The notes under the pieces are model-generated. The model had not been told where the DNA came from and searched no databases. It saw only the letters and a program-made list of their open reading frames with translations. A program made the translations under genes and the position numbers. From Glandiceps talaboti (lineage: Eukaryota > Hemichordata > Enteropneusta > Spengelidae), in the NCBI RefSeq assembly GCF_964340395.1, contig NC_135568.1, positions 6,454,079 through 6,518,078 of the forward strand: a stretch of DNA of 64,000 nucleotides, in the 5' to 3' direction. This document shows, one piece after another, positions 32,286 through 35,200 of this stretch. Within the stretch, counting starts at the first letter, position 1, and each line of letters starts with the position of its first letter.

Positions 32286-35200
32286 TCATTTTCCTGCAAT
32301 GTACGGCACCTCCGTCTCCCTCTCAATACCAACATACTTTAGAGCATCAGTGGGACCATATCTACATTTGAGAAAAAGTGACAAAATTTGTTCATGCCAA
32401 AATAATAAAATGATCAAAATAGGGAATACAAGTGATGGCAAAAATCCACCATCAGGTAGAAATGTCACACAATACAACTGCTAAATCAAAAGGTGATTAT
32501 TGAACACATACAGCTAGCTGTCCTTTTTGAATAATTTTTACGTTTTAGTTCAACACATGATAATCCTGATAACGAAAAAAAGTATTTCTCTACATCTTCA
32601 AAACACATTATACTTTCAAAAATGTTGACATGTGAACAGTGGTATGGCATTCAGAACAGCGCCCCCACAAGGTAGGTTTGGCATTCAGAACAGCGCCCCC
32701 ACAAGGTAGGTTTGGCATTCACAACAGCACCCCCACGAGGTAGGTTTGACATTCAGAACAGCGCCCCCACAAGGTAGGTTTGGCATTCAGAACAACGCCC
32801 CCACCAGGTAGGTTTAACATTAAACTATCTCGTCACATACCTGTAGTCAAAGAAAAGTTCTTCTCCTGTTTGTATGGGTCTCTTAGCAAAGATACCAATG
32901 CGATGATCTCCATTCACCATCATTACTTTGGCATAACAGTTTGGATTGACAGAATGGTTAGCAAACCGGATCTTGTTTCCTTTCCTTGTAGCATCAACAA
33001 CAAAATCTAGAAACAATGATATTTCCGATTTAGTATAATTTTTTTATCCTGATTGGGATAAATGGTCATTGAACTCCATGGTGCCTGCAACTATGACATG
33101 GCACATGTAGAAACTCTCAAAGACCTACCAAAATTGGCAAGGCTCAGACGTCGGTTGTCCAAGTCAATTTTTCAGTACATTCAAACGCATGTGACATGGT
33201 ACCCAACAATTCAATTTAAAAGTCGTTTATCCTGAAAGCACGGTGTATCTTTCTATCCCAATTGGGAACTATTACAGATTTTTATTGGCTGTGCAGCTGT
33301 ACGTATGTTAGTGTTGACATTTACAAGAACATAATTCTATTCAAACTTACCGTTATTGAGATTAAACAAAAAACTACTCATATATTTGTCATACACTTTG
33401 CCACGTCTATCAGCTTCATCTTGTGATATGATCTGTAAATCAATTGAAAATCAAAATTAGAAAATCCAAAACTACTACACTGAAGTCATAAAACAAAACA
33501 AAATGATAAGATGACACTTTTGATGAAAGGAGAGGAATCTGTATACTACTAGTGTGGTGGGAACATGAATACCTAACACATGTAATGATTAAACTTTTCC
33601 TTCCATTTAAAATGTTTCTTTTTACACGGTATACATACCTCACCACAGTACTCTGATATAAATTCATTCTTCTGGGCAGTTTCTTTTAGAAAAATACCCC
33701 AACCAGCTACGTCTGATGGGGCTAGCAATAAATGCTGGAAAAGATGAAATCAAATATAATGCCATCATGTTATCAAACATAATAAGTATAAATAATTGTA
33801 TATCAAACATAGACACATTACGACTTACATACCTGGGTGCAAAAGTTATCAATAAGAAAGTCCCCACAAATAATAACAGATTATTAACTCTTTACATTAG
33901 AGGAATGTACGACACAGACAGACTGACACACACACACAAAAATCACTAGACAAAGAATTTGAGAACTTCAATTTTAATCTTCAAATTTTGTCTGAGTTAA
34001 ATTCAAGTGATCAGAAATATTTGAGATAAATTACCTTTTTAGAGCCTCTCTGCAAACTAACATTTTTACAGGATATATTCTTGGACTCATCATTATCTAT
34101 GGATTGAGATGGAAAAAGATGAATAATTAAGAAAACAATCTGAGGTTTAGGGATCTTTCAGATAAAAACACATGTAGCACATAGATCAGAATCACATTCT
34201 GTGACTGCTTGATAACATGAATGTCTTACCTGCACCACATGTAGCACATAGATCGGGATCACATTCTCTGACTGCTAGATAACATGGATGTCTTACCTGC
34301 ACCACATGTAGCACATAGATCGGGATCACATTCTCTGACTGCTAGATAACATGAATGTCTTACCTGCACCACATGTAGCACATAGATCGGGATCACATTC
34401 TCTGACTGCTAGATAACATGGATGTCTTACCTGCACCACATGTAGCACATAGATCGGGATCACATTCTCTGACTGCTAGATAACATGAATGTCTTACCTG
34501 CACCACATGTAGCACATAGATCAGGATCACATTCTCTGACTGCTAGATAACATGAATGTCTTACCTGCACCACATGTAGCACATAGATCGGGATCACATT
34601 CTCTGACTGCTAGATAACATGGATGTCTTACCTGCACCACATGTAGCACATAGATCGGGATCACATTCTCTGACTGCTAGATAACATGGATGTCTTACCT
34701 GCACCACATGTAGCACATAGATCGGGATCACATTCTCTGACAGCTAGATAACATGGACATTGTTTAGTATTACATTGTGCTTTACACCTACAGCCAGGAA
34801 AGCGATTTGTACCTGAAACACAAATAATACCATATATTATAGAAATACAACTCTCAGATACAGTTTTCATTGGAAAGTCGTTATGATGAATTTGATATTT
34901 GATAAAATCTGTTATTAAAGATGCACCCAACTTCCGCATTTATTTTTTTCGGAAGTTTGCAAAATGATAATTACAGCTGTGTTGTCAACAAATTTAAGAG
35001 ACACAGAGACTGCAACTTTTAAACTTACACCCAATCAAAAAAAAAATTATATACATACAAGTGAAACAAAGGGGCTGTATGTTCTACCATTAATTTCAGC
35101 CCAGAATTAGTGAAACAGAGATGAACGGAAGAGCATCAAGTGTCATTGAAACTCAGATACGCATAGAAATAAGGGACACATGTTATTATCCAGAAATCTA

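Follow-up and report, generated by a model that had tools for sequence, protein, structure and literature searches.

Minisatellite-like tandem duplications of exon-intron boundaries have been described in amphioxus globin genes under the name 'mirage', which was taken from earlier work on Adh3 (PMC3087553), and further mirages were reported in PGBD5 and TnC (PMC3902484). According to the parts of the two papers that were consulted, the amphioxus mirages (Adh3, the globins BflGb6 and BflGb9, TnC, PGBD5) have units of 10-160 bp with AG/GT signals, lie at 5' as well as 3' boundaries and go along with regular splicing. In the same parts of PMC3087553, 6 and 3 repeat units are given for two haplotypes, and the Adh3 data together with RT-PCR of the globins suggest that splicing is undisturbed. 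No genome-wide account of mirages was recognised in our literature search, which does not show that none exists.

The array studied here lies in the EZH2 gene of the window (the whole stretch of 64,000 nucleotides that was analysed; GC 35.6%), which is part of an assembly of 590 Mb in 47 contigs, at least 22 of them longer than 5 Mb; this GC content and these lengths appear unlike Branchiostoma. The array is a real structure of the already described mirage kind and is ordinary within this genome. The duplication spans the boundary, the copies contain splice signals, one authentic copy completes the exon, and a homogenised interior is accompanied by a diverged edge. Boundary-spanning duplication, AG/GT signals, a unit length within 10-160 bp, edge copies outside homogenisation and the involvement of either boundary are common to this array and to the amphioxus mirages, as far as the latter are described in the parts consulted. 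Unlike those cases, the gene is EZH2, the donors are eight and identical, and 30 such arrays, with up to 118 copies, were found among those examined in this genome. The features at the locus are as follows.

34699-34812, minus strand: 114-nt EZH2 exon (CXC region), both ends in phase 1; the first repeat copy is formed by its final 57-59 nt, with donor 1 after 34699
34169-34757, minus strand: donor mirage, a 67-bp tandem array of 8.8 copies detected by TRF; copies 2-9 are intronic
34699 (last exon base), minus strand: true donor 1, GCAG/GTAAGA, which closes the normal EZH2 exon
34632, 34565, 34498, 34431, 34364, 34297 and 34230 (last bases), minus strand: seven decoy donors, GCAG/GTAAGA, all of which reach an in-frame TGA
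34169-34229, minus strand: ninth copy at the array edge, partial, diverged and without donor, 90% identical to the exon copy over 51 nt
34097-34168, minus strand: last part of the intron, outside the repeat, comprising the pyrimidine tract and the acceptor (...CCATAG)
34035-34096, minus strand: next EZH2 exon (21 protein letters, not shown), supported by PDB match and tblastn

The earlier note on this DNA had placed the array in the CXC region before the SET domain of EZH2, and this assignment was borne out. The array exon and the next exon together matched EZH2 chains in PDB with an E value of 1e-28, and tblastn with a human EZH2 query aligned 17 exon pieces from 53672 to 32304 on the minus strand, which include SET and extend to the C-terminus. 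For human residues of about 45-81, 187-217 and 329-402 tblastn gave no match in the gene, spurious hits aside. Open frames inspected by eye added an 18th exon at 37650-37847. The array exon, numbered 14 in the earlier note, is the 13th of these 18 exons. On the plus strand, three long intronless open frames with a RING-finger-like start (TRIM-like, as judged by eye) were observed at 26038-28305, 39855-41987 and 44895-47093, of which two lie within EZH2, on the opposite strand. In the genome, SET-domain matches recurred at 12 or more places with the same scores and the same frame lengths, as if they belonged to a mobile element or a gene family.

TRF reported a period of 67, 8.8 copies and 97% matches for the array. 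The unit consists of 57 nt of exon end and 10 nt of intron, and the eight identical donors follow each other at a constant spacing of 67. The earlier note had described a nine-fold array reaching to 34812; the 67-bp unit and the eight donors hold, whereas the ninth copy is partial and lacks a donor, and the repeated part stops at 34757, leaving 34758-34812 as unrepeated exon. Variation among the eight units with a donor is confined to three columns. The first has GCT in the exon copy and GCA in the seven other units, a change that would be synonymous if coding; the second is a private C-to-T change in one unit; and the third, intron position +10, runs C C T T C T C T without periodic order. 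A homogenised interior, a drifting edge and a first copy held by the protein are the usual look of a minisatellite, and the identity of the units together with the fixed period is far beyond chance. When two units were used to search the genome, the six pieces obtained among the best candidates scored all fell into C22:6488247-6488835, which is the EZH2 array itself. Tandem arrays are common in the window (40 TRF rows). At 50347-51504 an EZH2 intron contains 17 copies of a 68-bp unit, to which no EZH2 exon was similar in the comparison with flanking sequence described below. With ordinary intronic minisatellites (VNTRs) the array has features of period, copy number and within-array variation in common, but its first copy is coding sequence with a donor in working position.

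Assembly readily goes wrong at tandem arrays, and the copy number given here is that of the assembly, so that a single boundary copy might have been expanded by mis-assembly. This explanation is extremely unlikely: an array of 589 bp is short for long reads (the 47 contigs suggest a long-read assembly), individual copies have variants of their own without a periodic pattern, and decayed duplications at other boundaries, described below, cannot be mis-assembly of this kind.

To the acceptor at 34097/34096 the intron measures 602 nt from donor 1 and 133-535 nt from the other donors. The frame beyond donor 1 continues for 12 protein letters (not shown) and ends in TGA, and because of this stop all seven decoys lead to the same TGA. 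Even donor 34498, whose 201 extra nt are in frame by length, meets it, so that the claim of the earlier note that normal protein comes from donor 34699 only was confirmed.

Several ways in which the splicing machinery might deal with the array were considered. Hiding of the decoys by RNA structure was rejected, since the exon-intron fold was no better than that of 20 shuffles (z 0.01), and recursive splicing at CAG/GTAAGA was rejected for its poor pyrimidine tract (0.47). The unit also contains an internal acceptor, TAGCAG/TC, with a pyrimidine content of 0.59 as compared with 0.53-0.76 in the EZH2 acceptors that were scored (10 of 14). Judged from the letters, such unit-internal acceptors would allow an in-frame cassette of 42 nt, or 14 residues, in the CXC region; unless units were skipped, the accompanying intron would measure 25 nt. 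In mammalian cell reporters, the intron-proximal one of two identical donors can win. Such a preference would predict the wrong donor here, and the choice of donor in EZH2 is therefore to be tested rather than assumed.

In our view the array is probably a neutral minisatellite of the mirage type which arose across an exon-intron boundary. A tandem duplication would have happened to span the boundary, and slippage or unequal exchange may then have expanded it. The copy adjoining the exon body would serve as the real exon end under the constraint of the protein, and the other copies, being intronic, would be free to drift. Splicing most likely occurs at the first donor, because this donor, paired by exon definition with the acceptor of the short 114-nt exon, closes that exon, and the decoys would be removed as part of the intron. 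Where a decoy was occasionally used, the product would run into the stop codon and probably undergo mRNA decay. With the exon completed by the first donor, the array would be tolerated. Tandem copies with splice signals are also known from intron gain by AGGT duplication (the Rogers model, as cited in PMC3087553, and the potato RdRp gene, PMC4974935). This candidate was rejected for EZH2, where copies 2-9 all belong to a single intron, the exon is uninterrupted and the coding sequence contains no new intron.

Each of the 18 EZH2 exons, extended by flanks of 30 nt, was compared with the same strand over 4 kb in both directions. Three of the 18 exons had a boundary duplication, and the older two are decayed:

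36403-36740, minus strand: second donor mirage, decayed, 135-bp unit, 2.6 copies, from TRF and the exon-flank comparison
51917-51985, minus strand: copy of the acceptor and beginning of exon 51721-51841 (80%), decayed, containing a stop and inserted bases

In the first of these, two copies of the end of exon 36669-36856 lie downstream with 84% and 79% identity; copy 2 keeps GTAAGT and carries a stop, and copy 3 has no donor. The second, at about 120 nt upstream of the real acceptor, is not a TRF array. Decayed mirages of this sort show how introns come to contain remnants of exon ends. In the EZH2 region as a whole, 16 TRF arrays with a period of 20 or more cover 17.7% of 21,426 bases and contain two donors and no acceptors. 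In 3,061 rotations a mean of 3.0 donors and 3.0 acceptors was expected, with a probability of 0.78 for two or more donors. The overlap of arrays and donors in EZH2 is thus as by chance and no special attraction to donors is needed; seeding of arrays at donors was accordingly dropped for this gene (two seen, 3.0 expected).

Similar arrays were found at other genes, where exon ends were called by eye from an open frame and an acceptor. A loose triple-donor pattern applied to the first 5 Mb of contig 1 listed eight arrays, four of which start at an apparent exon end. Three tighter patterns listed at least 11, at least 18 and at least 10 arrays, of which 9, 10 (two of them weak) and 6 had their first donor at the end of an exon with an acceptor. 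Of 39 listed donor-motif arrays, 25 were at an apparent exon end, 12 were not at exons and two were unclassified. L064, the start of which lies outside the stretch, and L068, in which only 4 nt of the exon lie in the array and the frame is unclear, were left out of the mirage count; on re-reading, no exon preceded the array start in L052, L077 and L084. Outside EZH2, 28 exons with a donor mirage were counted, loose-pattern cases included, and the copy number at these other genes ranged from 2 to 118. The largest mirage observed (L048, 3364-8812, contig C1) has 118 copies of a 46-bp unit over 5.4 kb at an exon of a polycystin-type channel. The 9 mirages found in about 67 Mb with the first tight pattern would extrapolate to about 80 of that kind genome-wide.

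Peptides from 21 of the 28 exons were searched, and 11 matched at 1e-3 or better, confirming by homology exons of a polycystin-type channel, a TFIIB repeat, galaxin, PNPase, isoleucyl-tRNA synthetase, TRRAP, an AZUL domain (that of UBE3A), BAR, copine, TSP1 and neuron navigator. The other 10 searched peptides, including L057 and L079 against PDB, had no match at 1e-3. Genome-wide, four donor motifs exceeded their reversed counterparts (10948 against 7387, 1885 against 580, 686 against 249 and 332 against 132), and for a fifth pattern the excess was hardly visible (380 against 330); these are counts of matches, not of arrays, dominated by large arrays and not normalised for the frequency of the single motif.

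The earlier note had proposed that the copy number acts as a switch of splicing or decay, in which the number of decoys would set the share of EZH2 mRNA going to the stop-containing form. EZH2 dose matters, and seven decoys identical to the true donor all lead to TGA. The occurrence of similar arrays with 2-118 copies at unrelated genes, the decayed mirages within EZH2 itself and the chance-like overlap of arrays and donors speak against such a role and leave it unsupported, though not disproved, and highly unlikely. So do the amphioxus cases, which are reported to splice normally in the parts of PMC3087553 and PMC3902484 consulted. For EZH2 itself the array is of little importance. Arrays of 3 to more than 100 near-identical competing donors at conserved genes lend themselves to testing how a donor is chosen, as well as exon definition and mRNA decay, and suitable genes are EZH2 and those with exons matching a TFIIB-type factor, PNPase, isoleucyl-tRNA synthetase, TRRAP and the AZUL domain of UBE3A.

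We also followed the fate of the decoys over all mirages. In the stretches examined, none of the 408 decoys in 30 mirages (two in EZH2 and the 28 others) gives an in-frame, stop-free extension. For first decoys alone, 0 of 30 were in frame and stop-free where 2.7 were expected (P 0.047). Units that are multiples of three occurred in 3 of the 30 mirages (P 0.003 against one third), as compared with 14 of 48 control arrays, a set that still includes the unclassified L068 (P 0.04). This scarcity is not predicted by strict neutrality and counts against that part of the favoured explanation. A strict rule that units are never multiples of three was rejected, as units of 57 and 42 occur and the second array in EZH2 has a unit of 135. 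As a weak lead, unit lengths appear to avoid multiples of three, as if mis-spliced products had to be destroyable.

Decoys might be used now and then, with selection keeping only those arrays whose misuse is destroyed, either because the unit is not a multiple of three or because the extension contains a stop. The absence of in-frame, stop-free decoys and the scarcity of multiples of three fit this idea, which is nevertheless unlikely: it arose post hoc from the first 13 arrays, the 16 arrays read afterwards alone gave 2 of 16 multiples of three (P 0.059), and the test relied on exons picked by eye, some variable unit lengths and few controls. In its full form it would hold that boundary minisatellites sit at many genes, and that their decoy donors are used enough to be under selection, which would maintain units that are out of frame or contain a stop and thereby ensure the destruction of mis-spliced mRNA, with unit-internal acceptors taking part in EZH2 as well; to this whole we likewise give only a small chance. 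If it were true, the genome would be a natural experiment in which one donor is picked among up to about 100 near-identical ones.

The retention of decoy donors was followed in eight arrays, counting copies at least 80% like the unit. Decoy GT was kept in 83-100% of the copies, and a strong purge of decoy donors was therefore rejected for these arrays. In L059, 3 of 51 dinucleotides were lost more often than the decoy GT, and in L050 4 of 40. In these two arrays the decoy GT belongs to the more frequently lost pairs, which may hint at selection acting against decoys.

Some further arrays were observed in the course of the search. On contig C46 (17 kb), the 2.4 kb examined (L109, C46:3200-5600) had no tRNA or Rfam match and read like a satellite of related short units, open in several frames. 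In the array of L066 (C2:7468100-7469900), the unit has sites resembling donors on either strand. L062 (contig C2, minus strand, 4059-7140) is a 38-bp array of 81 copies that has only 5 nt in common with the preceding exon, the peptide of which resembles a DEAD helicase in a weak match.
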